A DNA stretch of 64,000 nt, from the NCBI GenBank assembly GCA_029243025.1, contig JAQWSU010000044.1, positions 43,728-107,727 of the forward strand, given 5' to 3'. Positions 5,251-33,294 of this stretch are shown here, one piece after another (position 1 is the stretch's first letter; each line of letters starts with the position of its first letter). The position numbers and the translations under genes are program-made. This DNA is from Pirellulaceae bacterium. GTDB taxonomy: Bacteria; Planctomycetota; Planctomycetia; Pirellulales; Pirellulaceae. The notes beneath the pieces were generated by a model. It did not search any database and was not told the origin of the DNA. It was given only the letters and a program-made list of their open reading frames with translations.

Positions 5251-5281
5251 ACGCTCGTCAGAATTCATGTTGTGAAATAAC

Positions 5282-5317
5282 GGCAGTGCTGAGGCAATGA
5301 ACGTAATGCCTGCTGCC
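5282..5317. terminator. Possible bidirectional terminator hairpin between convergent genes
   Basis: Nested inverted repeats GGCAG/CTGCC (5282-5286, 5313-5317) and AGGCA/TGCCT (5292-5296, 5307-5311) lie between the stop of the sulfatase (5250) and the stop of the LRR lipoprotein (5360). There is no T-tract. The position fits a shared terminator; the fold is inferred by eye. Confidence 0.35.
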
Positions 5318-5359
5318 AGTCAGATTAGATGGACTGATCCATTCTTTCAAAAATCACAG

Positions 5360-5971
5360 CTAATCAACAATGTGACAGTTTCCAAGCGTCTGCTGAAGAT
5401 CCGCAACCCCGGCGCGAGTGACTGAGGTGTCGACGATGCTTAAGGTTTCGAGTTTCGTCATGCCTTTTAGCTGGGCGAGTCCCGTATCGGTGATCTTGGA
5501 ACCATCAAGAAATAGAGAGTTGAGTCCTTTGAGTTGCGACAAGGACTGTAAGCCCGCGTCTGTTATCTGGGGTGTGTAGAGTTCCAGATGTTTGAGATGC
5601 TTCAGATCTTTCAGGTAGCTTAGTCCTGCGTCCGTGATTTCGGGCCCATTGAGTGCGAGCACTTCTAGATCGACGAAATCCTGGAGGTGAACAAGATCCG
5701 CATCTTTCAAATTTGCGTCGCCATTCCCCAAACCAATCACGATGACTTGTCCTTCTTCATTGACAGTGATCTCAGCGCCGAGTGTTTTGAGTGCCTTTGT
5801 TGCCGAGATCGGTTCGGTTTTGTTTTCGCCCAATCCTGTTGGGGTGGCACGTTTCTTCGGGGGGGCCTCCGTTGTTGCCACGTGGTGATCATGAACGTTA
5901 CTGGGTGAGTCGGTGCTGCACCCCAGCAGAGACAGAAACAGGAAGATCCAAATCGGGGATTGTTTCAGCAT
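5360..5971 (-). CDS. Leucine-rich-repeat lipoprotein
   Basis: A 203-residue lipoprotein. The signal peptide ends in LSLLGC, a lipobox with C18 as the likely lipidated residue, followed by a disordered Ser/Pro/Lys stretch to about residue 55. The rest is made of LRR units of about 24 residues carrying the ITDAGLxxL signature (ITDAGLSYLKDLKHL, ITDAGLQSLSQLKGL, ITDTGLAQLKGMTKL). This LRR type is abundant in planctomycetes and usually serves protein-protein recognition. A strong AGGAGG ribosome binding site sits 5 bases before the ATG at 5971. It is convergent with the sulfatase and divergent from the SGNH/NodB/GH78 gene. The partner is unknown. Confidence 0.85.
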   Translation of the reverse strand: MLKQSPIWIFLFLSLLGCSTDSPSNVHDHHVATTEAPPKKRATPTGLGENKTEPISATKALKTLGAEITVNEEGQVIVIGLGNGDANLKDADLVHLQDFVDLEVLALNGPEITDAGLSYLKDLKHLKHLELYTPQITDAGLQSLSQLKGLNSLFLDGSKITDTGLAQLKGMTKLETLSIVDTSVTRAGVADLQQTLGNCHIVD

Positions 5972-6329
5972 CGTTCCTCCTTGGATGAGTTATTGACACT
6001 TTCTAGGAACCCGGAAATCGGAATTGTTATCTCAGAGGACCAGAATGAATTGTCGAAGATTCAAATGTGGAATGCAAATCTTTCCGGCAATGGGGATTGT
6101 CCCGTAGGGTTTCGAGAACCCACAGGTTCTTGCTTCGCTGGCTGGTTTTTTCGGGCGACGGTTGTCCGGAGCGGTCGACCTTTAGCTAAGATAACAGCCC
6201 CGAATGACCTGTTGGTCCTGATTGGGCAAAGTTGTGAGGAGTTGGTTTTACTGAGTCGCTTATTCGGTAGGACAGCTTGCGAGATCGAGAGTGAAATCCT
6301 GGTGAAGTCGAAATGAAAGTTGCCAAGTT
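5972..6329. other. Divergent intergenic region
   Basis: A 358-bp gap between the divergent lipoprotein and SGNH genes, so it should hold both promoters. An open frame on the plus strand (5960-6316) has no domain signature and overlaps the lipoprotein start; I do not regard it as a gene. I see no repeat or RNA signature. Confidence 0.5.
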
Positions 6330-7226
6330 ATGAAAAACGTGATGGTTGCCATCGCAATGCATTTACTGTTTGCCCCGACGTTTGCCGCCGATGAATCCAA
6401 GACTCCTGGAATCGCTGATCATGGGCCGCGGTTCTCTACCGAGGGTAAAGGTTGGCGACTCGATCAGGCGCGGATCAACGATCCCGATTTACCGCGCGTG
6501 TTACTTATCGGTGATTCGATTCTCGCTGGCTATTTCAAACACGTTGCGAAAGATCTCGAAGGCCAGGCCTATGTGGATGCGTGGGTCAATCCACATCATC
6601 AGTCTGAGCATCTGAATAAGCTGTTGGCCGATGTGCTGGAACAAGGACCCTATGACTTCGTGCATTTTAATATGGGGTTGCACGGTTGGGTCGAAGGTCG
6701 CATCAAACCCGGGACCTTTGAGCCGCTCACCAAGGCTTATGTTCAGGTCCTGAAAGCGAAATTGCCGAACGCCAAATTGATTTGGGCGAGTAGTACGCCC
6801 GTTACAAAGCAGGACAGTCCGACGGAGTTGGAACCTGAAATCAATCCGATCATTGTCGAACACAATCGAATGGCTGCCAAGGTGATGGCTGAGATGAGTG
6901 TTCCAGTAAATGATTTTTACTCACTGCTCGTCGAGAAAAAACAGCTCGCTCGTGGCGATCGATTTCATTGGACGGCTCCGGCGTACAGGATTCTTGCGGA
7001 TAAGACAAGTCAATCGCTTCTGCAAACCTTAAGGTCAGCCGAAAAGAAACCGATACCTGACAGGCTCATCGTGCTGACGTTCGACGATGGTAACAAATCG
7101 GACATCCGTTTTGTTGCCCCCCTGTTAGAAAGACTTGGCTTTAACGCAACCTTTTTCGTGAATCGTGGGCAAGCTGATGGGAATGGCCCGCGCTTGAGTT
7201 GGGCTGATATGCGAGAGTTGCAGTAA
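6330..7226 (+). CDS. SGNH hydrolase + first half of a NodB polysaccharide deacetylase domain (ends at an in-frame TAA)
   Basis: The 5' part of a much longer frame. A signal peptide (residues 1-19) is followed by an SGNH/GDSL-type esterase domain with [10 protein letters not shown] (nucleophile S63) and GDRFHW (D210, H213), spanning about residues 50-235. A NodB polysaccharide deacetylase domain then begins at [12 protein letters not shown], which carries the metal-binding aspartate near 252. The frame stops at TAA 7224-7226, in the middle of NodB, right after SWADMRELQ. The same frame continues immediately with RGFEV then NHTLNHP, the missing metal-binding half of NodB. SGNH and NodB domains both remove acyl groups from carbohydrates. 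As it stands this product would have a working SGNH domain and half a deacetylase. Confidence 0.8.
7224..7226 (+). other. In-frame TAA splitting the SGNH/NodB/GH78 gene
   Basis: Codon 299 of the frame beginning at 6330 is TAA. Upstream (ADMRELQ) and downstream (RGFEVANHTLNHP) residues join to give the usual NodB sequence with one residue in place of the stop. No shift of frame is needed, so a single base change (for example from CAA, AAA or GAA) explains it. Because it is TAA, selenocysteine or pyrrolysine insertion is not an explanation. Confidence 0.9.
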
Positions 7227-7238
7227 CGAGGTTTCGAG

Positions 7239-10200
7239 GTGGCCAACCATACGTTGAACCATCCCAACCTCGTTGCTTCGGAGGCAGATAAAGTAAGAAG
7301 TGAATTGAGAGAACTCACTGAGCTGCTGCGTCAGCAAGGTATTTCGCCACCTGCCAGCATGGCATACCCCGGTGGACACCACGACAGAAAGAGTTTGAAG
7401 CTGCTTTCCGAGTTAGGTTATCAATTCGCTCGTCGAGGCGTTGATCCAGAATTTCCGCTTACGGATTTTGGTGGGCCTGGTTTGTTCTATGATCCGTTCG
7501 TCGATCATCCGTTTTTGATACCGTCCACGGTCGTTTTCGGTCCGGATACAGATTTAAACGATCTTCGGAACGCCATTTGGGGCGCAAAAGACGGCAAGGT
7601 GGCTGTTCTAACCTATCACGGTGTTCCTGATGTTCATCCACATTGCAGCACTTCGCCCGAGGTTTTTCAACAGCACATGCAACTCTTGAAGGATCACCGT
7701 TGTACGGTGATTGCGATGCAGGATTTGGCTCGCTATGTCGATCCAACCCGGCGACCGGTGAATCCTTACAAGGCCATTCATGATCGATTCGCACTTCAAG
7801 TGGGTGATTTGAGATGTGAGTACTTGGTCGACCCGAGGGGAGTCGATACAGGTGAGCCTCGATTCAGTTGGCAGCTCTCTTCCTTTCGACCGGGGCAAAA
7901 ACAGACGGCTTATCAGGTTTTGGTGGCTACGAGCGAGGAAAATCTAAGTCGGAGTCAAGCGGACCTTTGGGACAGCGGTAAGGTGGTTTCTGATCAATCT
8001 GTTCACGTGGCTTACCAAGGAAAGAGATTGAAAAGTGGGCAACTTGCTTATTGGAAGGTCCGTGCTTGGAATGGACCGGCCAATGACGGTCGTTATGCGA
8101 ACCCAACTTATTACGATCAGCAAACCGTAGCTGCCTTAAACTTCATCCGACCATCCGACTACTCCGACTCGGCAGAGTTTCAGATGGGGTTGCTCGAACC
8201 GAATGATTGGCATGGTTCGTGGTTAGCCCATCCGAATGCCAAAGTGTCATCCCCCTTATTTCGCAAAGCGTTCACGATCGATCGTGGTATTCGTCGAGCG
8301 ACGGTATTTTTCGCGAGAGTTGGCTACTCGGAATTAACTGTCAATGGAGAAAAGGTGGGCGATCACGTGCTTGATCCAGGTACGACCTATTATCACCACG
8401 ATCAAGATTACAAGATTGACTCCCGTGTATTGTATGTGACTCATGATATCACTCCGTTCTTATCTGATGGACGAAATGCAATTGGAGTGATGCTTGGACA
8501 CGGCTGGTACAGTGCCGAAGACGATGTACCCGGGCCTCCAAATCATCGACTGCCTTATGCTGAATCACCGCACTTACGTATTGAGATTCAGCTGGAGATG
8601 AAGGATGGTACAACTCGAGTACTTGCAAGCGACGAGACATGGCGAGTCGCAGCGGGGCCTGTAACTTATAACGACTTTTCGCATGGTGAGTCGTACGACG
8701 CACGCAAAGAGTCCGTTAACTGGGATCAGGTTGCCTTCGATGATACGGTCTGGCTTGTGCCGCAGGTTGTTGAGGGTCCCAATGGGCGACTTGTCTCGCA
8801 GATGTTGGAACCAATTCGTGTCGTCGAGACGATTCAACCGGTGAAAGTGAATGAACTTCGCGCGGGTCAATTTATCTATGATATGGGTCGTAACATAAGT
8901 GGTTGGACCCGGATTCGTGTGCGAGGTGATCGCGGCACCAAGGTGACTTTACGCCATGCGGGCGGCCTACATGCCGATGGCCGCCTCGATGACCGATGTA
9001 ACATGCATCCGACCCATGAGGCTCGTCAAACGGATCTTTACATTTTAAAGGGGGAGGGGGAGGAGAGCTGGGAGCCGCGATTTACACTCCATGGATTTCG
9101 TTATGTCGAAGTGTCGGGGGATCCTGCGCTTTTCGAGTTGCTTGCGGTCGAGGGTCGGATGGTCCGTACCGATGCTGAGTCCGCCGGAACTTTTCGGTGT
9201 TCCAATCCACTGCTCAATCGTATCCATGACTATGCGAAACAAACTTTCGCATGTTGTTTGCAAAGTCAGCCGCAAGATGCCATGGATCGAGCGGAACGCG
9301 TGGCGTGGTTGGGCGACCCAGGAATGATTGCCGAAGATTGCATGTACAACTTTCGGACGGCCCCCTTTTGGACGAAATGGCTCGAAGACATTCGGGACGC
9401 ACAAAAACCCAACGGCGAGGTTCCTTTTACTTGTCCCAACCCTTGGCGCGGATCCTTCGGGAATTATAGCTGGGTACCAGTGTGGCACTCAAGCTATCCA
9501 TTGTTTGTTTGGTATCTCTATCAGTATTACGGTGATGAACGCATTTTGGCTGAGCACTTTGACGCTCTGCGATCATTGGCTGAATTTCATCGGCGCAAAG
9601 CTGATAACGGCATTTTGAACGGCGGCCTTGGCGATCATATGGAACCTCAAGCCGACGGTAGGTCCTCGTCAGGACCACGGCGGACGCCCAGTTCGCTCAC
9701 CTCCACGGCCTACTATTTTTACGAAACAAAGATTTTGGCAGAGATTGCTCGCGTGTTGGGGAAAGACTCGCTGGCAGGAGAGTATCAGACCCACTCGGAT
9801 CGGATCAAAGATGCATTTAACCGCGAATTTTTTGATTCCGATTCGAACGACTATGGACGAGGAAGCCAAACGGCGAATGCCGTCGCACTCTATCTTGGTC
9901 TTGTCCCTCAGGATCGGATTATGGGAGTGCGAGAAAATCTTGTTCATAACATCATGGAAGAACATCAAGGGTCTCTGGCAACGGGGATCGTTGGTACGAA
10001 CGCCCTCGAACAGGTGTTGCCTGAACTTGGCGAAACCGAAGTGATGTATGGCATTGCAACGAAGACGACTTTTCCAAGCTGGGGTCATCAAGTAGTTAAC
10101 GGTGCTACAACGCTCTGGGAAACATGGGAGGAACCAACGGCGGAACGCTATAGCCTCAACACGAAAATATTTGGCAGTTCACAACTCTTCTTCTACAAAT

Positions 10201-18967: not shown

Positions 18968-21900
18968 CTAGGCCGATGGTCGGCGTGTTGTGACTGTCGT
19001 TAAGCTAGCGATAACGATAACGAGGAAAAGCGAAACGACCAGGGTCTTCCAGAGAGGAATCCTGAGCTGCGAATCGAAATCGAGATCGAGTACAAGTGGG
19101 GCATTCTCGGCAACTTGAACGCTACGACTGAAGGCGTAAACGGTTCCCTCTTCGGGTAGGCTGATCAGCATGGCCTGAGGGGCTGGGTCGGTGGTGTGTT
19201 GATGTTGAACCAGACGTCCCGCAATTTGTTGCAGAATCGCATTGTCTTCGGACGTATTGCCTCGCAGTAATTGACTAAGCTCCTGAGGGCGGAAGTTTAA
19301 TTGGTTTTGTTGCAGAATCGGATTGTCGGCAGCAGCTTGCCGTAACTGCTGGTTGTCTGCAATGGCTGTATCGTTCTTGTTGTTGTCCAGGTAGAGTCGC
19401 TGCCGGCGCGTGTTGAGTCCGACAATTGCCTGTTGCGTTTGTAGGTTTTCTAATTGTACGCGGGCATCTTCATTGGACGCTGCGTCGAGCGCGTATTGGT
19501 TGGCTACGCTGTTGAGTGCCCAGCGAGCTTTGGTTTGTTCGCCTGCTTGAAGGAGATCGTTGGCTTGCTCCAGGAGTTGAGCGGCTTGCTGGGCTTGGAC
19601 CTCTCGCTTTCCGCTGATCTTCGAGAGATAACTATCAACGTCGTAAGTTGCCTGATTCAGTTGACGAACGAGTTCGAGGTTTCCGTCATGATCAGTTAAT
19701 TCAAATCCATGGGGCGCTACGACATTCCATTCGATGTTTTCCAGAGGTACGTTAAGATTTGGGCTGAGCAATCTCAGCTTATTCAAACGCTTGCCGGGCA
19801 CCGAATAAACAAAACGTACTTTGGCAGTCCGATCATCGATACCCGGCAAAATGTAGAACTGCCACTCGTTCGTTTCACCGGATTGGCGGATCGAATGGAC
19901 GCTTTCGCCGTTTACAAAAATGCTGAATAGTTCGCCGTTGGCTGGTAGACCGACAATTAAGCTACTGCGTTGGATCACTTCCATGGTTACATCGACTGCC
20001 GTCAGTTGATCGCCGCTTGGCGAAAGCACGGTGGTCAATGAGCCCTTAGCGACCCGTAGTTTGAGGGCATCTGCGAGAGAATGACGCTTGGCTTGGACTT
20101 GAAGCGTATTTTCAGGGTCTAAAGCTCGTAGAGCGAGTGCTGGTGCATTGCGATTGCCTGCGTCACGCAGTTTTTGCGGAAAGGTGTTCCAATCGGCTCG
20201 TTGCCATCCTTGCGAGAGAGGAGAGTGCTCGATTTCCAGGCGTCCGCCCGCGCGGACGCTGAAATAGTAGGAAAGTTGTCGAGCTTGAGGGAACGTTGCT
20301 GGGTTCAGTGTTTCATTTTCATTCGCCCGATCGCCACGTCGTTCATATTCGATGCGGAAATCAATTCCTCCCACGACTCGTCGCTTGAATTGCACTTCCC
20401 AAATGTTGGATTCAGGATCCGTTCTCACGAAATCGCTAATCGTTTCTCCGCTGGCTCGAACTGTCTTGATTTCGTCTTCATTGGTGATCGGCAGATTGAC
20501 CCGTAATGTCCGAATCGAAGCGTTCTGAACATTGAAGTGTGCAAGCAGAGTCGATCGCGTTTGTCCTTCTCGCAGTGTGATGTCATGCAATACCTGACCG
20601 GTGAGCCAAGGTTCCAGTTTTTCGATGCCGAGCAACAGCTTCCAATTGCCCTGAAGGAGTCGGAACGCTAAGGCGCCTCGGGCTGTTCCGCCTAACGTTC
20701 GTGGATCGGTCTCGGACACATTCTGCCGTGATACGGTGCGCAAACGGATGCCCGTCGTTGGCCTAACGACCAACTCGCCAATTTGACGTGTTGCTTCCTT
20801 TAATTCGAAACGAGGTATGACCCAGTCGCCGAGTTGTGTCGGTGCGGAACCGGTGAGCGTGATTGAGAAGTCTTGGGTACCCATCGTTTTTCCATTGAGG
20901 TGGAGGATGATTTGACGTTGGTTCCCTTCGGTTAATTCCGACCAATGGTGCAGCGCGCTTCCGGTTAGAGACTCCACTTCCAGGCCCTGCGGTAAAGGGA
21001 AACTCAGTTGAAACAGGCCTGCTCGTGCGATCTCGGCGGTGAAGTTGATGCCCAATACAACTCGTTCATCACCCAACGAAAGAACTTGTTTACTGACAAC
21101 ACGGACTTCTGAATCAACGGGCGCGACACGTAAAGCCAGTTGCCCTCCCTCGGCGCCATAGCGGTAGACACGATGCAGCACGATACGTTCGTTGGGAACC
21201 AAGCTGCTGTCGAAGTCTCCCAGGTTCACCGCAGACATGTCGGTCGGTGTGGATTTTTCTGGTTGGGCATCGGGGCCGAATGCAATTGCAACTAAACCAA
21301 CTTCTCCACTGGCGTCAGCGACTCGGAGCGGTGCGAGCACGACATCTGCAGGGAGTGGGCTAAGCCCACGTTGCGTATGGATCATCACATCGAAGGCTTG
21401 GGACTGACTTGGTTCGATTTCAAGTTTTAAGCCTCCGCTATCGGCATCGAACTGCCAAGAACCGACTGGGCCAGTTACTTCACTGACCGTTATGCCTGCT
21501 GGTACCTGTACGTTCAATTCATCAACTTCCCCTTGGGAGGTGCGGATCTGAAGCTTATGTTTTCCATCGATTACACCGGGACTCGGTATATAGAGGTTGG
21601 ATGCTTCGACGAAGAACTGCCTTGCTTCCGTTGTCACATCGCGGGCTTGGGGCTTAAGTGATAGGGTTGCCTGGCCGGGACGAAGGAGCAGATTCGCCCG
21701 AGTTTCCTTGGAATCGGAGATATCGAGCGGTTCGATACGTATGGCGGTTGGGCTGAACACTTCCCAGTTCGCTTCGTCATACGTGATGGTGATCTGCTGA
21801 ACGGCTGCTGTGCCGGTGAGGACAGGAATACCCTTGATCGGGTCAATTGCCTCCAGCTGAAATTCAAAGGTTGCTTGGTAGTCGGTTACCTCAGGTGTCG

Positions 21901-24900
21901 TGTCAGTCTCTTCCGGCGACGAGGCTGTATTTTCGACAACTGGAATGCTGATGATATACGTTAGCCCTTCGCCGGGAATGTTTCTCTTGTTGAGCCGTAA
22001 GCCTTGCGTTTCAAAGCGTGTCAGGATTGCCGGCGCTTTTAAAAGTAAAAAGCGATCGCCAGGTTGTCCGGAGAGTTTGATTGTGCCGTTTGCTGTGAGA
22101 CGCGCATCTCGATGAGTCAGTTGCCACTGCTGAGTGATTGCATTGGCGGCTTCGAAGCCCTCGGGAACCGACGCTCGGCAAGCTGCGGAGGAGGCGAGAA
22201 AGGAGAGGACTACCAAAAGGATGGTTGCGGTGGCCGGTCCCGCTCCAGCCTCCTGCGCTTCTGGGGTTGCCGTCTTTTTCGCTCGACGTCGCTCCGCGAG
22301 ATTTCGGAACCAATCGGGAATGCCTCGTAACCAAGTCCAGGCGGGAGGAATGAACGCAAGGCTGAGAATGGCCAGAGCAAGCATCGTAAAAAACAACGGT
22401 GCTCCGTCGCCTTGAAATAGAATACCGAGAGCGATCAGGAGGAGGCCGACGCCGCGGAGCAGGATTCGTTGGTCTCCGCTTCTGGTCTTAAAGAACGAAT
22501 AGATGACGGCAGCGAGACCTGCGAGAAGGGCAGTAAGACCGACTCCCGAAAGGTTGACTCGCCATAATGAAATATTCTTTGCTTGAAATTCAACGAGTTC
22601 GCCGGCCGGCAGAATCGGCAGGCTGACCTGCAGCGGTGCGGGCAGTGCTGTGTCGGACAGCGCCATCGTTGCGGTGGAAAAACAGACAAAAACTGCGAGC
22701 GCCAGGCCAGCAAGTCCCAATAGACGGAGCGCGCCTTTTTTGCGACAAGCCCAGATCCCCAACCCATTTAGCAGACCGATGGAGATCAGCGGTACCATCC
22801 CCTGATTCGTGACCCAATCAAAACCGGATGGCCTTAATACCGGAACCTGAGGTTCGACGGTTCCGCCTTGGGGAATCAAAACTCGTTGTTCATCGCCCTG
22901 GATATTCCATTGTGTCTTTAGGATGGGTGCGTCCACGACGGGCAAACTCAGTTCCGGCGAAGACTCTCTGACGCTTGGCTTTCCCAGTCGCAGATTGACT
23001 TCTACGGGAAGATTCGGATCCGTGTTACCGGGCAACGGAATTAATGTGGCATGGTCAGTTTGGCGCGCGGTGACAGGCTGCCCATTGACAGAAATTTCCC
23101 AAAGACGGACAGGCTCAGCCGGCAACTGGATGCGAAGTGTACGTCGCCCACGGGATTTCACGTAATAGAGCACGTCGGTGACAAGTTCACCGTCCTGAGA
23201 AACACGCGTTGTCGCTTCCGAGAACTCAACGAGTTGAGTCACGAGGCTACCTGGCTGAAACCAATTCACTTTTAAATGAAGATCAAAGGGACGTTCTGTA
23301 TATTGCCAGGTTCCCAAAGAGGGTGCGGTGCTGAGCAAGCGAAACTCAGCCGGTAACTCGAGTGGGTCTAACTTGAGCATGTCTTTCGACATGGACGTGG
23401 TGGTAATTTCCACTTGCATGGGACTGACTACCTGGATGTAACCACGTTCCCCTTGGACTCCGATAGGAGCGATCTTTCCAGCTTGGAAGGTGCTGTTGGT
23501 TTCATCAGGCTTTTCCTCAAAGGTTACCAATAACGTATACGGGCCCATCACGGGTTGATGGAGAGAAACGATCAACGTGTCGCCGTCTCGGCGCCAAGTG
23601 CGAACATTCTGGCCATCAACCATCACATTTCCCAGTGTTGCAGGAACCGCGATGTTCCACTCTGAGACAGGTGCGCCCGTGACGAAATAGTTAATCAGTG
23701 CGCTACCGTAGACAGTTTCTTGGTTGAGAGAATAGAGATGGAAAACATCGGACTGAATGCTGCGATCAAGCAATTCAATCTGCAGGGTGGCTGACCAACC
23801 AGGTTCGCGAATTCGGAAGGCTTGTTGCAGATTGGCCGCCGGTTTGGGGAAGTAAGAGAGTGGCTTTTCAACCAACAGGTTCGTCTCGACGACTGCGATT
23901 CGGAAACCCGGTGCACCGATGATCCCAATGTCGCCACGTATCGATTTCGCACCTGGATGATCAATGCGTGGAAGGCGCCAATCCTCTTCGGTCGCGGGCT
24001 GGTTTTTTTCTAAATGCAACTGGACTAATTGTCGCCCCAAAATGGCCTGAGAAAATGTCACCTTCAAATTGCGATGACTGTCTGTGACTTCACTCGCCGA
24101 AATGTAGTCCGCCACGCTAGCGCCGGTGACCGAGACCACTGAATAATCCGAGGGTATGAGAAAATCCCACTCCCGAATTGGAGCTTCTCGAACGTCCAAT
24201 TCGATATCTGCTTGAATCACGCGATCCGTTTCGGCTAACTCGTACAGCACTAGCTCAGCGACGTTCACCTCGGCCTGAATGCGATCGGCAGCGAGGGTGA
24301 ACTGGTACTCCGTAGCAGGAAAGCGATAAACAAAGGTTTGGCGAGCCTGAATGGCATTTCCCGGAAACTGATCTGGGGCCAGTTGCGTGAGACCTACCAG
24401 TCCGGTCGGTTCGAGACGTACTGATCCCAGGTTGCTGAGTCTCAGGTAACCGGAGTGGCGGACGGCCCCAACCGGAGACAATCGCAATCCGTCGACTCGT
24501 ACTGGAAATGCGCCGAGAGGGGTCTGACTGTGCACTTTGATTTGGCCGGATCCGTTAATTGGCTGGCTGAGTGTGATGTCCAATTGGCGATCCGCTTCTT
24601 GGGCACTGACTTTCCACGCGACGACGTTACTGCCTTGTACATCAAGTATTTCTCCAGGTCCTTGCAAAAGAATGCGAAGCGATTTTAAATCGCCCTGCAG
24701 GACTTGATAATTGATTTGGTGATCCTGACGCAGCAAACCAGCGCCAACTCTTGCCTCAATCTGTCCCGTCGTGGTGAAAAAAAGCTTTCCTTCTCCTGCT
24801 TTGCGTGCCGTTTTCCACTGTAAACGGGCGCGACCTGTTGCCGGTAAAAAACCTTTCCAGTCAGCGTCATTTCGCACAGGTACGACGGATTGTTGGTCGC

Positions 24901-25984
24901 GGTGGAACTCGAGATCCGAACGGAGTCCGCTGAGCGTCAATGGAACCACACCACTGGCGGCAATCGTGAAATCCATGCGATGCGAGTTGGCCTGAGGTGA
25001 TTCCAGCGTAGCGATGAAGTTGAGCGTGATCGGAAATGTGCCTGCCTGAGGAAATACCAGTTGGTAGGCAGTCATTTTGTTCGATTTTGAAAGCCGAAGG
25101 CGATAGTTGCTGTCGGTGGGGAGTTGGCTGAGAGCCGCATTGCCAGACAGGATCGTGATGTTGGTGTTGGGCTCGCTGACGTGTGCGGTGCTGACGAGTT
25201 CAAAACTGATTGACCGGAGATCTTCATTCATCGTGCCGCTAAGTCTCGTGTTTATTAGCTCAACGGGAGGGGGCGAAGAACCGTCACGGTTGAGCGAGAG
25301 CCTGATTCGACCACCGGTCGAGCTATAAAAACGTTCGAGGGGACTCTCAGGACTCTCGGCTTGTTTCGGATCGAGCGGTGAAAAACCGTTGACCGCTGTG
25401 ATCACACCTTGAATACCGGGCGCATCGTGAATGCTTACCATCGATTGGAAGCCGACTGATTTCCCAGGAGTCAAATGTGTCAAATCGATGGCGGTGGGAA
25501 GCTGGAGTTTGGCGGAACGGACGGTAATCGTCACTTTTTGCTCGTTGACGACCTGTTCGAGATGCAGGTCAAGAAAACGTTCAGATCCTTGTCGTCGCAC
25601 GGCCCAAGACTGTAGATTCTCGCCTTTCACCTCGCTAACGGGCCCTTCTCCACGCAAGCCGAAGCTCAGTGTCTTGGCTTCGCCCTGAATCACTTTGATT
25701 GCCAATTCAATACTTTGTTCGATTCGTTCCGGGCCGATTTGCACCTTGGCATCCGCTCGAGCTGTGTAAAACAGCGGGGGCTTGGGGCGGTTGTCGGCCG
25801 TCTCGACGATGATCGTTGCTCTCCCATCACCGCTGAGCGACGTACGATTTTCGGGCTGGTTGGAACTCTCTTGGCCCTGGCAAAGAACGACTCCTAGGTT
25901 TGCCCAGGACAACAGTAAGAGCAGGGGCAGGGTTGTGGAAACGGAAAGTCGTTTTGTTAACGTTTGCAAGATTGTCGTGACCAT
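18968..25984 (-). CDS. Giant envelope protein, two extracytoplasmic beta-rich arms around a multi-pass membrane core
   Basis: A 2338-residue protein I do not recognise as a named family. Visible parts: signal peptide (about 1-36); about 1020 residues of beta-strand repeats rich in VRLEP, LHLEQ and similar strand motifs; about five or six hydrophobic segments between residues 1062 and 1275; a second beta-rich arm of about 1000 residues; a helical coiled stretch near 2140-2220 (QAAQLLEQANDLLQAGEQ); and a last membrane helix at about 2312-2332 with a short basic tail (TTRRPSA). The last core segment (ILLVVLSFLASSAACRA) reads like a signal peptide, as if two secreted proteins had fused. It is the third gene of an operon, 30 bp after the vWA gene. 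A role in envelope sensing or adhesion is inference. Confidence 0.82.
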   Translation of the reverse strand: MVTTILQTLTKRLSVSTTLPLLLLLSWANLGVVLCQGQESSNQPENRTSLSGDGRATIIVETADNRPKPPLFYTARADAKVQIGPERIEQSIELAIKVIQGEAKTLSFGLRGEGPVSEVKGENLQSWAVRRQGSERFLDLHLEQVVNEQKVTITVRSAKLQLPTAIDLTHLTPGKSVGFQSMVSIHDAPGIQGVITAVNGFSPLDPKQAESPESPLERFYSSTGGRIRLSLNRDGSSPPPVELINTRLSGTMNEDLRSISFELVSTAHVSEPNTNITILSGNAALSQLPTDSNYRLRLSKSNKMTAYQLVFPQAGTFPITLNFIATLESPQANSHRMDFTIAASGVVPLTLSGLRSDLEFHRDQQSVVPVRNDADWKGFLPATGRARLQWKTARKAGEGKLFFTTTGQIEARVGAGLLRQDHQINYQVLQGDLKSLRILLQGPGEILDVQGSNVVAWKVSAQEADRQLDITLSQPINGSGQIKVHSQTPLGAFPVRVDGLRLSPVGAVRHSGYLRLSNLGSVRLEPTGLVGLTQLAPDQFPGNAIQARQTFVYRFPATEYQFTLAADRIQAEVNVAELVLYELAETDRVIQADIELDVREAPIREWDFLIPSDYSVVSVTGASVADYISASEVTDSHRNLKVTFSQAILGRQLVQLHLEKNQPATEEDWRLPRIDHPGAKSIRGDIGIIGAPGFRIAVVETNLLVEKPLSYFPKPAANLQQAFRIREPGWSATLQIELLDRSIQSDVFHLYSLNQETVYGSALINYFVTGAPVSEWNIAVPATLGNVMVDGQNVRTWRRDGDTLIVSLHQPVMGPYTLLVTFEEKPDETNSTFQAGKIAPIGVQGERGYIQVVSPMQVEITTTSMSKDMLKLDPLELPAEFRLLSTAPSLGTWQYTERPFDLHLKVNWFQPGSLVTQLVEFSEATTRVSQDGELVTDVLYYVKSRGRRTLRIQLPAEPVRLWEISVNGQPVTARQTDHATLIPLPGNTDPNLPVEVNLRLGKPSVRESSPELSLPVVDAPILKTQWNIQGDEQRVLIPQGGTVEPQVPVLRPSGFDWVTNQGMVPLISIGLLNGLGIWACRKKGALRLLGLAGLALAVFVCFSTATMALSDTALPAPLQVSLPILPAGELVEFQAKNISLWRVNLSGVGLTALLAGLAAVIYSFFKTRSGDQRILLRGVGLLLIALGILFQGDGAPLFFTMLALAILSLAFIPPAWTWLRGIPDWFRNLAERRRAKKTATPEAQEAGAGPATATILLVVLSFLASSAACRASVPEGFEAANAITQQWQLTHRDARLTANGTIKLSGQPGDRFLLLKAPAILTRFETQGLRLNKRNIPGEGLTYIISIPVVENTASSPEETDTTPEVTDYQATFEFQLEAIDPIKGIPVLTGTAAVQQITITYDEANWEVFSPTAIRIEPLDISDSKETRANLLLRPGQATLSLKPQARDVTTEARQFFVEASNLYIPSPGVIDGKHKLQIRTSQGEVDELNVQVPAGITVSEVTGPVGSWQFDADSGGLKLEIEPSQSQAFDVMIHTQRGLSPLPADVVLAPLRVADASGEVGLVAIAFGPDAQPEKSTPTDMSAVNLGDFDSSLVPNERIVLHRVYRYGAEGGQLALRVAPVDSEVRVVSKQVLSLGDERVVLGINFTAEIARAGLFQLSFPLPQGLEVESLTGSALHHWSELTEGNQRQIILHLNGKTMGTQDFSITLTGSAPTQLGDWVIPRFELKEATRQIGELVVRPTTGIRLRTVSRQNVSETDPRTLGGTARGALAFRLLQGNWKLLLGIEKLEPWLTGQVLHDITLREGQTRSTLLAHFNVQNASIRTLRVNLPITNEDEIKTVRASGETISDFVRTDPESNIWEVQFKRRVVGGIDFRIEYERRGDRANENETLNPATFPQARQLSYYFSVRAGGRLEIEHSPLSQGWQRADWNTFPQKLRDAGNRNAPALALRALDPENTLQVQAKRHSLADALKLRVAKGSLTTVLSPSGDQLTAVDVTMEVIQRSSLIVGLPANGELFSIFVNGESVHSIRQSGETNEWQFYILPGIDDRTAKVRFVYSVPGKRLNKLRLLSPNLNVPLENIEWNVVAPHGFELTDHDGNLELVRQLNQATYDVDSYLSKISGKREVQAQQAAQLLEQANDLLQAGEQTKARWALNSVANQYALDAASNEDARVQLENLQTQQAIVGLNTRRQRLYLDNNKNDTAIADNQQLRQAAADNPILQQNQLNFRPQELSQLLRGNTSEDNAILQQIAGRLVQHQHTTDPAPQAMLISLPEEGTVYAFSRSVQVAENAPLVLDLDFDSQLRIPLWKTLVVSLFLVIVIASLTTVTTRRPSA

Positions 25985-26014
25985 CAGTGAAGATTCCTCT
26001 GAATTCGCGTGTTC

Positions 26015-28918
26015 CTATTTTCCACTCATCTGTCGAGCTTGTTGAATCATTTGCTGCAGTTGTTGCAGTCGCTTTGCATCACGATATCGCGTCGGTAAAC
26101 CGGCCAGCACGTCGGATAACGCCTTCAGTTCGACGGTTTCTCCCAACGCTGTGCCTTTTAGTTTTGCCGCTAACAGGGCAGCAGAACCTGCGATACGCAA
26201 GGCCGGGTTGGCCCGATCAAAACGTGGAGCGTTAGCGTCGTACGGAATTGGCCAGCGGTTTTCAATCATCTGTCCCGTCGACAAGTCGCGAAATCGCACC
26301 GACACTGAACCGACGTCACCTTCGCCATCTGCTTTCGGTTCAAATTGATAAATGGCTACTCCGGCTTCAGCGGCAGCCATTTCGGCTGCATCGACGTTGT
26401 CGTCGTGAAAGTCTTCTTGTTGCAGCCGGTGTTTTTCAAATCCGAGTAGCTTGTAGTGGCCTACCCGTTGGGGATTGAATTCAATTTGTACTTTCACATT
26501 TTGGGCTGCGGGACGCAGCGCGCCGGCAATTTGACGTGCGAAACCTGCATCGGCTGCTTCGAGGGAATCGAGCAAATAATAACGTCCGTCACTCCGACGC
26601 GTGAGGGCCTCGAGAATTTCGTCGTTCAGCCCCTCGGCGCTGATACCGGCCGCATCAAACGCAATTCCCTGATCGCGCATTCTCGCAAGCATCTGAGACA
26701 AACTATCGGGATTGGCATCGCCCAAATTGACCGCACCGTCCGTGAGTAAAACGATACGATTTTGCGCCCCTTCGAGCCGTTGTTCTAAGGCTTTTTCGAA
26801 GGCTAATGCTAACGCGGCTTCGATATTCGTACCGCCTTCGCTAGGTAAGTCTTGGATCAGTTGCAGCAATTGTTGAGACTCAGTTCCACTCACTTTGTCG
26901 GCTAATAACCGCGGTTGCCGTGCAAAGCTGATCAGTGTGACTTGATCGATCGGTTTGAGTTGCTGAGCGAGTAAAGCGAATGCACGACGCACCGTTTGAC
27001 GGCGATCGAGTCGTTCCATCGATCCTGAATTGTCTAAGAGCAATGTCAACCGGAGGGGCGTGTCATTCGATCGACCCTCAGCCGCTGTCTTCATCGAAAT
27101 CCGCAATAAATTGCGTTGTTGAAGAAAAGGATGGATTGATTGTTCCACGCAACAGCTGACTTTTTCACTGCGGCCGGGAGTTGGATCGCCATAATCAAAT
27201 GCGTTGACAAATTCTTCAATACGAACTGTTTCCGCCGCTGGCCACTCTCCACGAGCAAGTGCTGACTGTGCTAGTTTGAAAGAAACATCACTCACATGCA
27301 GAGAAAATGTAGAAAAGGCTTCTTGTTCAGTGTTTTTTTCGTTGAGGCCCTCGTCAGCCTGTTGGATTTGGCGGAATTCGTTCCGCCTGTTCGTGACTTC
27401 TGGTTGTTGTGAAAGCCCATCGAAACCACCGATGTTCTTGTCGAGCTCTACCAGCTGACTTGATTCGAGCCCCAAATGATTTTGCTGCGCAGAGTTGAGC
27501 GATAGATCGGCTCCGTTTGCCGTTTCCGGTTGTTTGCGCTTGTTCGCTAACCCAGTCTTCGCCGAACGGGTCTGTGATTGTGAGGGTTGCGTTGCTGGGG
27601 TATTGCGGCGGTTGCTGAGGCGACCCTCTTTTCGCCCAGCGCCAGATTCTTTGGTGCGCTGCTTGAAATCTAGGTTGCCGCTGGGGTCAGGTGAACGAAT
27701 GAATGGACTTCCCGAGTCAGATAATTGGCTGGCGGGTTCGTCGATTTGTCCTCGCTCGAATAATGTTCTGGAGGATGGAGTTAGCGGGGGAGCGGCCGGT
27801 TGGTTTACCAATGGCCGAGCTTCCGTTTCTTCCGTGTCAGTCTCGTTGGTACTAGGTGAATCTTCTGCCGCTGAGTAACGCTCTCCTGATTGCCGTAAGT
27901 CGAAGGCGGGCGCGGATTCGCCCCGTTTTACTGCTTCTTGATTCCTTGCTCGTTTCAGTAAATCGAGTCGATCCGTTGCTTTTCCCGAAGTAGCTGCTGC
28001 TGCTGGTCGGAAAGGTTTCGATTCGTTGGGTGGTTCGGCGGATTGAGGTTGTTGTTCCTTGCTTTGCGACGCCCCACCTCTACCGAAAAATCGATTCTCG
28101 CTTTCCACCCTTTTCTCTTGGGATTGTGATTCGGTGAATCGATCACGGCTTCTGCTCGAGTTGCTTGATGCTCGTTTTTTAACTCTGTTTGAACCGGGGT
28201 TAGCAGTTTGCCTCGCTGAAGAATGGAGGTGGCCTATTTCGGAGTTTTCAGCTGCTTCTTTTGAGTTGAAATATCGAGCCGTTCCGATAGCTCTTGGTTG
28301 TTCGGAAGGTTTCCGTGCGTCAGCTTCCGGCGATCCTTCGAACCAGCTTGAAGAATCTTTGCCGCTCTGGTTGCTATGCTCCTGGTTTGCATTAGGTGAT
28401 TTCGAGGGAGTCATCGCCAAAGAAGGCATTTCGCCATCAGAGGGAGTAATGGCGGAATCCGAGGTGGAGAGGGCGGTTTGCAAAGCCGGTCGGATCGAAA
28501 AAAAAGTCAGCGTGATGAGGATGCCGGGGATCGTGATGTAACAAACCATTGCAGCAATTCGTTGTAAACTCCAAGTCGATGTGGGCGAGCTGCTGGTTGG
28601 TTGCTTGGGCTGTCGGTGGACGGTTGGTTCTGCCTCCGGTTGGGTCTCATTGTCAGCTGCTAATGCTAAGATTGAGGTTCGTTTGTCCGCAGACAATTTC
28701 CAGGCAGAATCATCTGCAAGCGATTTGTTGGGCTCAAGATCGCCCAGTAATCCATGGACACGTTGAATCCGTTCCTGAAAGTTGGCGAGCTCCGGACGCT
28801 CCTGAATGAGTTGGTTCAGCGTCTCTCGTTCGAAGTCGGATGCTTCCCCTAAGACGCGAGCGACGATGCGAGCTTCGAGTTCTGGATCGGTTTGCGGATT
28901 GTGCGTTTCTTCTTTCAT
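26015..28918 (-). CDS. Membrane vWA protein (YfbK-like, DUF3520) with anti-sigma-like cytoplasmic N-terminus
   Basis: A 967-residue protein. Residues about 1-115 are acidic and helical, as in cytoplasmic anti-sigma regions; one membrane helix follows at about 119-143; then a long disordered Ser/Gln/Arg/Pro-rich linker to about 520. The extracytoplasmic C-terminal part has a YfbK-type N-terminal domain (about 545-620), a vWA domain with MIDAS motif DNSGSM at 629-634 and TDGAVNLGDAN later, and a DUF3520-like end (about 800-960). Its ATG overlaps the stop of the ECF sigma gene by four bases (ATGA), which indicates translational coupling. This suggests it restrains that sigma factor and senses a ligand through vWA; that is inference from layout, with no zinc-binding anti-sigma motif seen. 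Confidence 0.88.
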   Translation of the reverse strand: MKEETHNPQTDPELEARIVARVLGEASDFERETLNQLIQERPELANFQERIQRVHGLLGDLEPNKSLADDSAWKLSADKRTSILALAADNETQPEAEPTVHRQPKQPTSSSPTSTWSLQRIAAMVCYITIPGILITLTFFSIRPALQTALSTSDSAITPSDGEMPSLAMTPSKSPNANQEHSNQSGKDSSSWFEGSPEADARKPSEQPRAIGTARYFNSKEAAENSEIGHLHSSARQTANPGSNRVKKRASSNSSRSRDRFTESQSQEKRVESENRFFGRGGASQSKEQQPQSAEPPNESKPFRPAAAATSGKATDRLDLLKRARNQEAVKRGESAPAFDLRQSGERYSAAEDSPSTNETDTEETEARPLVNQPAAPPLTPSSRTLFERGQIDEPASQLSDSGSPFIRSPDPSGNLDFKQRTKESGAGRKEGRLSNRRNTPATQPSQSQTRSAKTGLANKRKQPETANGADLSLNSAQQNHLGLESSQLVELDKNIGGFDGLSQQPEVTNRRNEFRQIQQADEGLNEKNTEQEAFSTFSLHVSDVSFKLAQSALARGEWPAAETVRIEEFVNAFDYGDPTPGRSEKVSCCVEQSIHPFLQQRNLLRISMKTAAEGRSNDTPLRLTLLLDNSGSMERLDRRQTVRRAFALLAQQLKPIDQVTLISFARQPRLLADKVSGTESQQLLQLIQDLPSEGGTNIEAALALAFEKALEQRLEGAQNRIVLLTDGAVNLGDANPDSLSQMLARMRDQGIAFDAAGISAEGLNDEILEALTRRSDGRYYLLDSLEAADAGFARQIAGALRPAAQNVKVQIEFNPQRVGHYKLLGFEKHRLQQEDFHDDNVDAAEMAAAEAGVAIYQFEPKADGEGDVGSVSVRFRDLSTGQMIENRWPIPYDANAPRFDRANPALRIAGSAALLAAKLKGTALGETVELKALSDVLAGLPTRYRDAKRLQQLQQMIQQARQMSGK

Positions 28919-29469
28919 GATCTACCGTCGATTCCGAGTGAACGCAAATTTTCTGCCAACTTTTTCAAAATGTGATGGAGACGATAGCCAACATTACTGA
29001 CGCTTAAACCAGTTTGGACGCTGATCTCTCGATACTTAAGCTGGTCGAAATATTTCAGCTTGATGAGCCTTTGATCCGTCTCGTTGAGCTTCTCCACTAG
29101 TTGTCTCAATGCGTCAGCCGTTTCTCGTCGCAACAGCGTTGCATCGGGCGACTCTTCTTGAGCGGTTTGCAGCTGTTCCTCGCATGATTCGCTATTGATA
29201 ACTTCCCGTTGATTGTCGCGACCATAGTTGTAGGCTCGGTTGCGAACGCTGCGGAAAAGCCAGGCTCTGGGAGCCTCGACATCGTCCCAACGAGCATGCA
29301 GCTGAAGGAAAACCTCCTGCACGATCTCCTCAGCAACCGTGCGCCGCCCAACCAGCGAATAGGCATATCGCAACAGGGGAGTTTCTTCCGTTTCAAACAA
29401 AGTCCGCAAGCTGGGCTTACTCACAGCCTGAGTTTCGGACGGATTGACTCGGGGTAACTGTTTCAACAT
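28915..29469 (-). CDS. ECF-type RNA polymerase sigma factor
   Basis: A 184-residue sigma-70 family protein of the extracytoplasmic-function type. Region 2 is at about 25-95 (LLRYAYSLVGRRTVAEEIVQ, VFLQLHARWDDVEAPRAWLF, RSVRNRAYNYGRD) and region 4 at about 115-175, with the HTH in YREISVQTGLSVSNVGYRLH. It lacks region 1.1 and 3, as expected. ATG 29469 is preferred; a TTG lies one codon earlier. It is the first gene of the operon with the vWA protein and the giant envelope protein, so the likely outcome is envelope-signal control of a regulon that includes its own operon. The target promoter cannot be read from this window alone. Confidence 0.94.
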   Translation of the reverse strand: MLKQLPRVNPSETQAVSKPSLRTLFETEETPLLRYAYSLVGRRTVAEEIVQEVFLQLHARWDDVEAPRAWLFRSVRNRAYNYGRDNQREVINSESCEEQLQTAQEESPDATLLRRETADALRQLVEKLNETDQRLIKLKYFDQLKYREISVQTGLSVSNVGYRLHHILKKLAENLRSLGIDGRS

Positions 29470-30183
29470 CAAACTCGGTTCGCTATGCCTGGCAACTGGA
29501 AGTCAGGGCCAACCCACTTGCTACAAGGCAGAAGACCCGTCATCGCTTCGTTTCTTAGGCCGTTTCTGGATTTTTTTGGGCAGCCTCGTGGAACGCTCTA
29601 AAACTGGATGGAAAAGTCAGCATCGGCCGGTTTGTCCCCCGCTGCAAACGCACTCCTGGCCGGGGTCTGTCGGGCCAATTTGCCTTCTAACCCGCCTAAT
29701 CGACTGATTTCTCGAATAATTGGGTCGCTGAAATTCCGCCAGAACCGACTCTTTGACGTACCCGACGGGCTACCCGTTCCGGAAATGCTGTGGTTTTGCG
29801 TAGAAAAATAAGAATGCCTAGGTTTGGCAGGTGAAACGAGGCAAGGAATGTCCGGTTAGGCGAGCTAACAAGCGTGAAAGAGATGCATTCGACGAGCCAA
29901 TCGAATTGCGTTCGTCGTGGCGAAACGGGTGTGGTGATCGCCTTTCCTTCGCTCCGGCGGCAGCAAGTTCTGGTTATGTGGTTACTCCGCCGACTCGCGA
30001 AGCTTCCTCCTTGCAGAAAGAGTGCGAGCTTGCCGATGGGTCGCTTAAATTGTTAATTGACTCAGTCGATTACCAGCTTCATACTGCGACTGACGAAGCG
30101 AAACGGAAATGTTTCGGACCCTGAGTTTCGGCCGAGCTTTGGCTAACAAGAACCGAATTTCAAGAGGAAAGGTTATCGACAAG
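29470..30183. other. Divergent intergenic region, 714 bp
   Basis: Separates the ECF sigma operon from the SGNH gene, which point away from each other, so both promoters should be here. Several short frames on both strands (for example 29608-29811 and 29831-30124 plus) lack any signature. No repeat or RNA fold was evident by eye. Confidence 0.5.
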
Positions 30184-33100
30184 ATGATGGGTAAATTAGT
30201 CGCGGGTCTTATGTGGGGCCTTCTCTTGACGCAGGTGGGCGTCGCATCGGATCCGCTTGAGATTCCCGATACGGACGCTGGTTTGACCGGTGCAGGGCCG
30301 TTACGACGCAGCGATTGGTTTCGAGGGGTGTGGCGACAGCGGCGCAAGTCTTGGTTGGACAAGACCGCCTCGCAACAGGGGTCGGTCGTTTTCTTGGGTG
30401 ATTCAATTACGCAAGGCTGGGGAGATGACTTGCGCGGGGCATTCGGAAAACTAAAGGTTGCCAACCGCGGAATCAGCGGAGACACGAGCCGCGGCTTACT
30501 CGTGCGACTGCCAGAAGATGTTCTTGAACTTCGACCGCGAGCTGTTGTGCTGATGATCGGCGCCAACGATCTTGCCGAGAAGGCCTTGGGGGAAGTTGTC
30601 TTTGGCAATGTGAAGCTGATCGTTGAGGCCCTCAAACAGCACAATCCGAAGATGCCGATCCTGTTGTGTGAAACGTTTCCGTGCGCACCGGACGCTTACC
30701 GCCCTGTGAAAGAAATTCGTAAGATCAATTCGCTCTATGCGCAGACTTGGGGTGACGATCCTCAGGTCACGATTGTGAAAACTTACGACCTGTTTGCCCG
30801 AGCTGACGGCGCCTCGTTGCGTGAATTTTTACCCGATCACGTGCACCCGAATAGTGCTGGCTATGCCAGGTGGGCGGGCGTCTTACGTCCCATCTTCACG
30901 GAATTGCAATTCGGTGATACGACGCCGGATCCGCACGCCTGGATTCACTTTACTCGACACGACAAGCAAGTTGCACTCTACAACGGTTACTACATTTACT
31001 ACACCGATCGCAGTCAACCGCTTGAATTCACGATCGACGTTCCGCCTCATCCGGATCACAAGCTGGCCTTTCAGTGGATTACCAAGCATGGTCCGATCCG
31101 ATCGATGACCGTTGAATTGAATGGTCAGGAAAAAATTGTTCGCCACCCTTCGCGTGGTGATGGCAAACAAGCGTATTTTTGGGATGCACTACCGGTGACA
31201 GATTTTGGCATTCGGGAGAAGCAGACCAAGGGAAGTTATCGACTGCAGATCAGCTGTCCGGATGATGCCGAAGATGATGCGGTGCTCTCCGGCATCCGCT
31301 TAATCACTGATGATGCACAGTTGTCTCATTCCCAACTTTCTCAGCCCATTCATAAAGTGAATTTTGTGGCGCCCGGGTCGATGTCCGCAGCCGAGCGTGC
31401 AGCGACGCGAATTGATCGGAATGCGGCCAGGCGACGAGTTCACACAAGTTGGGTCGCCGAAACGGTGCTCAATCAACAGCAGATTGCGGCCGATCCATTT
31501 TTGGCCGCAGCCGCTCGCTTTGGCGAAACGGTGATCCGTCATGGACGAGACGTCTACGGTCCGACGACCACGCCGATGTTCGTACGTTACTTGCATCGAG
31601 AACAGCTAAAGGCACCCGCCTCGCTTGCCTCGATGCCACCTGCTCTCGGCGGAGCATCACGTCCGATTGTGCAGACGCAATTTGATCGCTCGCAAAATCT
31701 GTTGCGAACACTTGTGAGTCTCAGTCAGGCGACCGGCGATCCGAAATACGCGGACGCTGCCATGGAAGCGACAATCCATATGTTCGAGGAATACGCGATG
31801 CCACACAGTGGCTTAATCGTGTTTGGTAATCACATGACGATTGATTTGGTTGGTGATCGCTCCTACAGCGATGGCCGCTCCGGTGATATTTTTGAACTTG
31901 AGGACGTCTTTCCGTTCTACGACTTCTGGTACGACGTGGCGCCCGTGAAGACGGAACGATTTATTAAAGGTTGCTGGGAGGTCTACGTGCGTGATTGGAA
32001 TATCATGCATTACAACCGTCATGCTGGTTTTAATAAGAACATCGACTTCCGTCAGACCTGGGAGCGTCCGCTGTTGGAGGTCAAAGATTTGCCCACCAAG
32101 ATGGAGGTGCTTGGGTTCATTGATGTTGGACTCGACCTGGCCTTTGGTGGATATTCGCTAGGCTGTCTACAGCAGGAGCAGAAACCGCGGCAGTGGGGGA
32201 ACCGCTACCTGAAGGTACTCGCTTACCACCGCGATCCGAAAACCAATGTCTGGCCGATGTTGCTTTACACGCCGTCGATTCGGCGACATCTGGAAGTTTA
32301 TCGTGAAGCTTTTCCCGAGGCCAATGTGACCGAGCCTCGAGTGATTATTTCAAGCTGGATCTACAACATGCCGGTGTTTTTTCTCGGTGCGTTGGGGACG
32401 GTTGAACAGGCCGACAAATACGGCCACAAAGCCGAATTGAGCGAAGTTCATGGTCGGATCGATGATTGGATCCTCGGCTATATGGATGCGGCTTACGATC
32501 GAGAAAACCACACCATGCGGAGTATCATCCTGGATGGTACGGACGTCACGGATCACGTTTTTCAGCCCGGTAAGGTACTTCATGGTTGGGGGGCAAAAGC
32601 CGGAGATTCTTTTCGAGCAAACCCGCCATCTCCCGCATTTCTGACCGCCATCGCTCGCGCCTACCGGCTTGCCGATGATGAAACTCGCAAACGCTATTGG
32701 TCGCTACTGCGCGAATTGGTTCGAGGGGAGGGACTCGGAGAGCTTGGTGCGACACCGGACGATCCACCGGATTTTAAGCTGGATGGTGCGCCGGCGGAAC
32801 CTCCGTACCTTTTTGCACTCGCCGATCTCTATCGGGTTCATCGTCGACCTGAAGATTTGGAGCTCATGGAGGCGTTGGGGCACAAGTTGATTGATCGTCG
32901 TCAGGATCCGAAGACTGGATTGTTCTCATTACCGCCCGATCGTCTGCAAACCATGCGGCATAATCAGCGAACGAAGGAACCCGGCGAGGGGCTCACGACC
33001 GGGCAAATTCTACGTGCGGAATTTGACTATGACCGGCCCAGGGTGGTCTCGTTGGATGTGATTGATCCTCTGGCCTTAATGGCGGTGCATGCTTGCCGCA

Positions 33101-33294
33101 CAGGACAGTTCGAAAAGATTCCGCAATGGCTAAGTGGAGGTCGGTGGGGCACCAGCACGGGTTGTGGTCACACGGTCGATCTGAATCTTGAACGTTGGTT
33201 CGACCGAGAGAAGCAAGAAGCCTATTACGAACGGGAACGCGATTGGCTGGACCAGAAAGGCTACGTGATCGGCGAGGGGTGGTTCGCCGAATGA
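30184..33294 (+). CDS. Secreted SGNH/GDSL hydrolase fused to a large helical (toroid-like) domain
   Basis: A 1036-residue protein from the preferred start. The ATG at 30184 follows GAGGAAAGG and gives a clean signal peptide (MMGKLVAGLMWGLLLTQ); an in-frame ATG at 30109 would bury it. Residues about 60-245 are a platelet-activating-factor acetylhydrolase-like SGNH domain: GDSITQGWG (S74), GISGDTS, IGANDLA and DHVHPNS (D218, H221), all blocks present. A beta-sandwich segment follows (about 250-400). The last about 600 residues are helix-rich with repeated aromatic and acidic motifs (SGDIFELEDVFPFYDFWY, FGGYSLGCLQQEQKPRQWGN) and look like an alpha/alpha toroid as in polysaccharide lyases or glycosidases. 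The esterase call is firm; the second activity is inferred. Confidence 0.88.
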   Translation: MMGKLVAGLMWGLLLTQVGVASDPLEIPDTDAGLTGAGPLRRSDWFRGVWRQRRKSWLDKTASQQGSVVFLGDSITQGWGDDLRGAFGKLKVANRGISGDTSRGLLVRLPEDVLELRPRAVVLMIGANDLAEKALGEVVFGNVKLIVEALKQHNPKMPILLCETFPCAPDAYRPVKEIRKINSLYAQTWGDDPQVTIVKTYDLFARADGASLREFLPDHVHPNSAGYARWAGVLRPIFTELQFGDTTPDPHAWIHFTRHDKQVALYNGYYIYYTDRSQPLEFTIDVPPHPDHKLAFQWITKHGPIRSMTVELNGQEKIVRHPSRGDGKQAYFWDALPVTDFGIREKQTKGSYRLQISCPDDAEDDAVLSGIRLITDDAQLSHSQLSQPIHKVNFVAPGSMSAAERAATRIDRNAARRRVHTSWVAETVLNQQQIAADPFLAAAARFGETVIRHGRDVYGPTTTPMFVRYLHREQLKAPASLASMPPALGGASRPIVQTQFDRSQNLLRTLVSLSQATGDPKYADAAMEATIHMFEEYAMPHSGLIVFGNHMTIDLVGDRSYSDGRSGDIFELEDVFPFYDFWYDVAPVKTERFIKGCWEVYVRDWNIMHYNRHAGFNKNIDFRQTWERPLLEVKDLPTKMEVLGFIDVGLDLAFGGYSLGCLQQEQKPRQWGNRYLKVLAYHRDPKTNVWPMLLYTPSIRRHLEVYREAFPEANVTEPRVIISSWIYNMPVFFLGALGTVEQADKYGHKAELSEVHGRIDDWILGYMDAAYDRENHTMRSIILDGTDVTDHVFQPGKVLHGWGAKAGDSFRANPPSPAFLTAIARAYRLADDETRKRYWSLLRELVRGEGLGELGATPDDPPDFKLDGAPAEPPYLFALADLYRVHRRPEDLELMEALGHKLIDRRQDPKTGLFSLPPDRLQTMRHNQRTKEPGEGLTTGQILRAEFDYDRPRVVSLDVIDPLALMAVHACRTGQFEKIPQWLSGGRWGTSTGCGHTVDLNLERWFDREKQEAYYERERDWLDQKGYVIGEGWFAE

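Follow-up and report, generated by a model that had tools for sequence, protein, structure and literature searches.

Planctomycetes combine many extracytoplasmic function (ECF) sigma factors with an unusual envelope, and for few of their ECF circuits is the cue or the output known. In the pairs RpoE-RseA, SigW-RsiW, SigK-RskA and AlgU-MucA, the gene of an ECF sigma factor is followed by that of a membrane protein with one helix. Another group, the RsgI- and RsiV-type anti-sigma factors, likewise has a cytoplasmic anti-sigma part, one helix and an external part. In both types this external part is a sensing one that binds a ligand. For RsiV, the ligand described is lysozyme (PMC4183432). A further architecture is that of the tethered von Willebrand factor A (vWA) proteins of the YfbK family, which one report proposes to be force transducers with a helix, a disordered linker and a YfbK-like vWA domain (PMC12204202). 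Here, we compare these systems with a locus from a Pirellulaceae bacterium (assembly GCA_029243025.1, contig JAQWSU010000044.1, positions 43,728 to 107,727). The window, meaning the whole stretch of 64,000 nucleotides that was analyzed, encodes on its minus strand (-) an ECF sigma factor, a membrane-anchored YfbK-type vWA protein that is predicted to be an anti-sigma factor, and a predicted envelope protein of 2338 aa, hereafter the giant protein.

The sigma gene (28915..29469; 184 aa from its ATG, with regions 2 and 4) shares the ATGA at 28915..28918, sigma stop and vWA start, with the vWA gene (26015..28918, 967 aa), and the giant gene (18968..25984) follows the vWA gene after 30 bp. Open reading frame coordinates bear out exactly both the overlap and the 30-bp spacing given in the preliminary description of this DNA, and the three genes form one unit. 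We consider it fairly probable that this unit works as an ECF/anti-sigma switch, that its sensor is the tethered vWA domain, and that it drives its own operon with the giant protein as its dedicated output. In the circuit that we infer, which takes in sigma binding, the cue, the release step and what the giant does, the sigma factor would at rest be bound by the cytoplasmic four-helix domain of the vWA protein. A periplasmic cue, sensed through the tethered vWA domain, would lift this hold, probably through proteolysis or a change of shape of the anti-sigma factor. Release by stepwise proteolysis would be by analogy with the RseA and RsiV systems. The freed sigma factor would then transcribe from a CTAAGAA-N13-GGGTCT promoter and raise the levels of all three proteins; the anti-sigma factor would close the loop, and the giant may strengthen or organize the envelope.

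The locus resembles the RpoE-RseA-type pairs in its gene order, in its predicted three-helix and fourth-helix cytoplasmic domain and in its likely autoregulated promoter, but its outer part consists of a linker of 320 to 925 residues (the range among vWA relatives, by a rough rule) and a vWA domain with a metal ion-dependent adhesion site (MIDAS), and the giant is added. With the RsgI and RsiV types it shares a cytoplasmic anti-sigma part (here predicted), one helix and an external part, whereas its own external part is vWA/YfbK, with no homology to theirs by Pfam. As the preliminary description had supposed, no described system with exactly these three parts was found in open-licence PMC papers, though an ECF-vWA group may have been described elsewhere. 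The locus offers a defined trio, a promoter motif and a conspicuous output protein. If our reading is true, the vWA domain joins the sensors carried by anti-sigma factors, the giant protein family gains a first handle, and a dedicated envelope-control circuit becomes testable.

The sigma protein is a member of the ECF group, with PF04542, PF08281 and TIGR02937 all over cut-off and a match to Mycobacterium tuberculosis SigL among PDB sequences (E 1.4e-11). Residues 12-89 of the vWA protein (28652..28885) form its predicted anti-sigma domain. AlphaFold2 models the N-terminus as a three-helix bundle plus a fourth helix (helices 12-22, 28-40, 42-60 and 77-89; mean pLDDT 74.6, pTM 0.48). In Foldseek, the 18 best PDB matches of this model were all ECF/anti-sigma complexes, each with a weak E-value. 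The three helices, linker and fourth helix of the model, its structural likeness and the adjoining ECF gene are those of a class I anti-sigma factor. The anti-sigma-like cytoplasmic part claimed in the preliminary description has in this way acquired a predicted class I fold (AlphaFold2, Foldseek and VIA-align). By sequence, the N-terminus has no match in PDB chains and no useful one in Pfam, where zf-HC2 appeared in one of 44 members (E 0.18); the alignment of 44 vWA N-termini (A2) leaves out duplicates and L072, L089, L164, L170 and L181, whose fourth-helix motif was missed by the pattern. None of the examined vWA proteins carries the zinc motif Hx3Cx2C within its first 110 residues. Class I anti-sigma factors may be without it (PMC7406223).

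Behind this domain, the vWA protein continues with a single membrane helix (residues 121-139; 28502..28558, by hydropathy), a long linker rich in Ser, Ala, Arg, Glu, Pro and Gln (residues 140-523; 27350..28501, composition taken over 141-523), PF12450 (vWF_A; residues 527-606, 27101..27340), the vWA domain (residues 624-787; 26558..27049), and PF12034 (YfbK_C; residues 800-930, 26129..26521). The YfbK family set PF12450, PF00092 and PF12034 is therefore present in order, with all three over cut-off. Pfam and alignment place the MIDAS (DxSxS, T, D) at D629, S631, S633, T697 and D727. All 48 distinct vWA proteins longer than 850 aa keep the same residue at each of these five alignment columns, and all 48 also have a strong hydrophobic helix (peak above 1.6) behind the N-terminal domain. 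The one helix, the long linker and the MIDAS of the preliminary description were thus all recovered, the MIDAS in complete form, and the vWA domain is predicted to lie outside the membrane. A constant vWA domain on a tether of variable length would suit reaching a partner across the periplasm. In one relative, L070 (G126:C9, 14598-18151), the vWA gene is split into two overlapping frames of 432 and 768 aa, reflecting a frameshift or a sequencing fault.

The same build of helix, disordered linker and YfbK-like vWA domain is described for Planctomycetes and other phyla (PMC12204202). A protein of this build could also act chiefly in force transduction from its tether, or as a structural part of the envelope, with an N-terminus that is not an anti-sigma domain. 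We regard this as highly unlikely. The SHLS motif of the transducers described there is in the helix of 0 of 48 vWA proteins, the only SHLS being at residue 924 in L072, and Pfam detected no motor-protein family, tolQ/tolR-like ones included, among the six genes scanned between window positions 15344 and 33294. The overlapping ECF gene and the match of the N-terminal model to anti-sigma domains likewise set the protein apart from these transducers.

The unit was followed from its own assembly (G000; 8.35 Mb, 60 contigs) into 241 genomes of the family, with thresholds of E <=1e-100 for the giant and the vWA core and E <=1e-30 for the sigma factor. Matches were found to the giant in 63 genomes, to the vWA core in 59 and to the sigma factor in 59. 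In 58 of the 59 vWA-bearing genomes, across 16 genera of the family, the giant lies 3' of the vWA gene and shares its strand; 56 of these are plain cases, in G358 the contig breaks off within the giant, and G381 has a short version of 1127 aa. In the 59th genome (G276), 134 bp of contig remain after the vWA core match. Where a giant lacks a vWA match (G114, G210, G357, G364 and G365), the giant is cut at, or at most 0.4 kb from, a contig end. Five genomes have a sigma match and no vWA core match (G274, G354, G357, G364 and G365), and in each the vWA N-terminus follows sigma; five others have a vWA match and no sigma match (G142, G205, G249, G252 and G356), and in G142, where the sigma side was followed, the sigma gene is present and carries an insertion. 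The 4-bp overlap of sigma and vWA genes recurs in 47 of 53 loci, four of these loci being second copies, each of the locus of its own genome. Because this overlap recurs and the giant so regularly follows the vWA gene, the arrangement is evidently more than chance. Carriers include Stieleria, Novipirellula, Rubripirellula, Roseimaritima and Aporhodopirellula, by the names on matching proteins or contigs; we take these genera to be placed in Pirellulaceae. Stieleria varia and Rubripirellula lacrimiformis are examples of carriers in culture. The distribution is patchy, and G236, the other genome of the bacterium's own genus, is without giant, vWA and sigma matches.

In relatives, then, the three genes are kept together and were found apart only in a duplicate pair of G326, whose contigs match Novipirellula aureliae. 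This genome has a second sigma-vWA pair without a giant (L146, G326:C1:1494000-1508500), with a promoter that bears the same motif as the operon. Read from the sequence, its 3' side encodes a PAS-type protein (PAS kinase-like), response regulators and a resistance-nodulation-division (RND) efflux pair.

Across the class, a vWA core match (E <=1e-10) was present in 118 of 198 genomes. Twenty class loci were hand-picked from these matches, mostly for long proteins, and in 17 of them an ECF gene immediately precedes the vWA gene; the script reported no upstream sigma for L215, L226 and L228, although L048, at the same place as L215, shows a sigma match. These generic planctomycete pairs are alike in having a YALGEL-type N-terminus and a membrane helix, but differ in that none of the 20 stretches, which span 7.8 to 15 kb, contains a giant relative. 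Since the ECF gene stands upstream in 17 of the 20 and a giant relative is present in none, the sigma-vWA pair is a theme shared more widely among planctomycetes, to which Pirellulaceae add the giant.

The existence of pairs without a giant would fit a giant that is a passenger, sharing a transcript with a sigma-vWA pair that is itself one working unit, and so would the distant giant relatives, since none of the 15 stretches inspected around them has a sigma or vWA match close by. A passenger role is nonetheless quite improbable, as 58 of 59 genomes, from 16 genera, have the giant behind the vWA gene, and the three matches come and go together across a patchy distribution. The distant relatives, adjacent genes of about 1100-1200 and 2500-2700 aa at L077, L082, L085, L087 and other class loci, give no function because neither partner lies beside them. 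Giant relatives are named hypothetical in the sources consulted; among the 120 listed, P0179 and P0180 have a precomputed PF11992 match.

The giant protein has no Pfam or NCBIfam family above cut-off. It begins with a signal-peptide-like hydrophobic stretch (residues 17-35; 25880..25936, by hydropathy), followed by ectodomain A, which AlphaFold2 models as all-beta (residues 40-1060; 22805..25867), a membrane cluster of six hydrophobic helices (within residues 1062-1269; 22178..22801), ectodomain B (residues 1270-2313; 19046..22177), and a C-terminal membrane helix (residues 2314-2332; 18989..19045), found by hydropathy and in 40 of 40 orthologs. Seven membrane helices are predicted overall. 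Each of the six cluster helices is present in 29 to 40 of the 40 orthologs, and the loop charges alternate. The orthologs were aligned as A1, made of the 34 that have less than 85% identity to each other. The two ectodomains align over 646 columns in hhalign (probability 99.3, E 2e-20), by which the giant is evidently an internal duplication. Near residues 401-567, 571-738 and 746-907 of the predicted model, a second aligner placed beta-sandwiches like the N-domain of M1 aminopeptidases, the predicted fold being the N-terminal beta-sandwich of M1 aminopeptidases and ribophorin I. The chains of oligosaccharyltransferase (OST) structure entries are taken, from their names, to be ribophorin I/Ost1. 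In contrast to these proteins and to M1 N-domains, with which no sequence similarity was found, the domains of the giant are tandem, duplicated and membrane-anchored; HExxH and GxMEN were not found in the giant of the window, and the catalytic HExxH is in 0 of 40 orthologs. Sub-threshold NodS matches were taken as chance. In G381, the operon at L233 (G381:C50:52000-62000, 5054-8437) has the short giant, which corresponds to ectodomain A, and pieces of a second-half giant start two other contigs, so that the split is either real or an assembly fault.

In integrins, MIDAS domains bind beta-sandwich ectodomains, and the predicted ectodomains of the giant are of this sort. The giant could then be a ligand as well as an output: its ectodomain would dock on the vWA MIDAS, and its loss or excess at the envelope would set the release of sigma in a self-measuring homeostat. 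The close linkage of vWA and giant favors a functional connection between them, and the MIDAS is invariant. Integrin alpha was among the Foldseek matches of the giant, as were alpha-2-macroglobulin and complement chains; all were set aside as common strings of beta-sandwiches because of their low TM-scores, the second aligner being preferred, and the integrin matches, with TM-scores of at most 0.17, are uninformative on binding. That the giant itself controls sigma release, as the preliminary description had suggested, is weakened by the pairs without a giant, both in 17 of 20 class loci and in G326, which argue against any need for it. We therefore hold the giant as ligand to be possible but rather doubtful. 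Equally tentative is its one-operon form, in which sigma acts mainly at its own promoter and the vWA domain, on its long tether, measures the ribophorin/M1-N-domain-like giant by MIDAS docking.

A candidate promoter, CTAAGAA-N13-GGGTCT, lies at 29533..29558 (-), 64 bp before the sigma ATG. New here is a conserved CTAA-N18-GTC motif upstream of sigma, whose full form is unique to the operon in the assembly. The count covers 48 distinct upstream regions, a 49th having been left out as too short; the regions are related and do not represent 48 independent events, though their flanks have drifted. CTAA-N18-GTC stands upstream of sigma in 35 of the 48, against at most five for each of the other spacings between 8 and 30, and the longer CTAAKAA-N13-GVGTCT is exact in 19 and has at most one mismatch in 38. 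The exact pattern occurs 85 times in the 241 genomes, with 23 sites directly upstream of sigma, 13 in a repeat of G325 and G337, and 49 elsewhere. The 13-site group was set aside because all its sites belong to a single near-identical repeat, CTAAGAACCTA..CGAAAAGGGGTCT, which imitates the pattern of the promoter. A reversed control pattern is commoner (about 200, our own sum), and for this reason the evidence for the motif is its placement. Such a shared promoter-like motif points to autoregulation.

In the 8.35-Mb assembly, the exact pattern has a single site, at this operon (29533-29558). One-mismatch sites number 16, or 15 besides the operon, as against 66 for the reversed control. A wider regulon drawn from them was rejected, as they are fewer than in the control; there is no sign of a large regulon, and single further targets are possible. 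Because the exact motif occurs once and its one-mismatch sites show no excess, the main target of the sigma factor is probably its own operon. Gene order, overlap, domains, MIDAS residues and both the conservation and the exact uniqueness of the motif are read from sequence.

A GAGAGGAT block is present in 21 of the 48 upstream regions (e.g., L142, L150 and L151); in 13 of the 16 measured it lies 10 bases past the motif's GT, and it is perhaps a start site or a leader element. In the product of the divergent neighbor gene (30109-33294 of the window, plus strand), Pfam finds GDSL lipase and pectate-lyase-2 domains.
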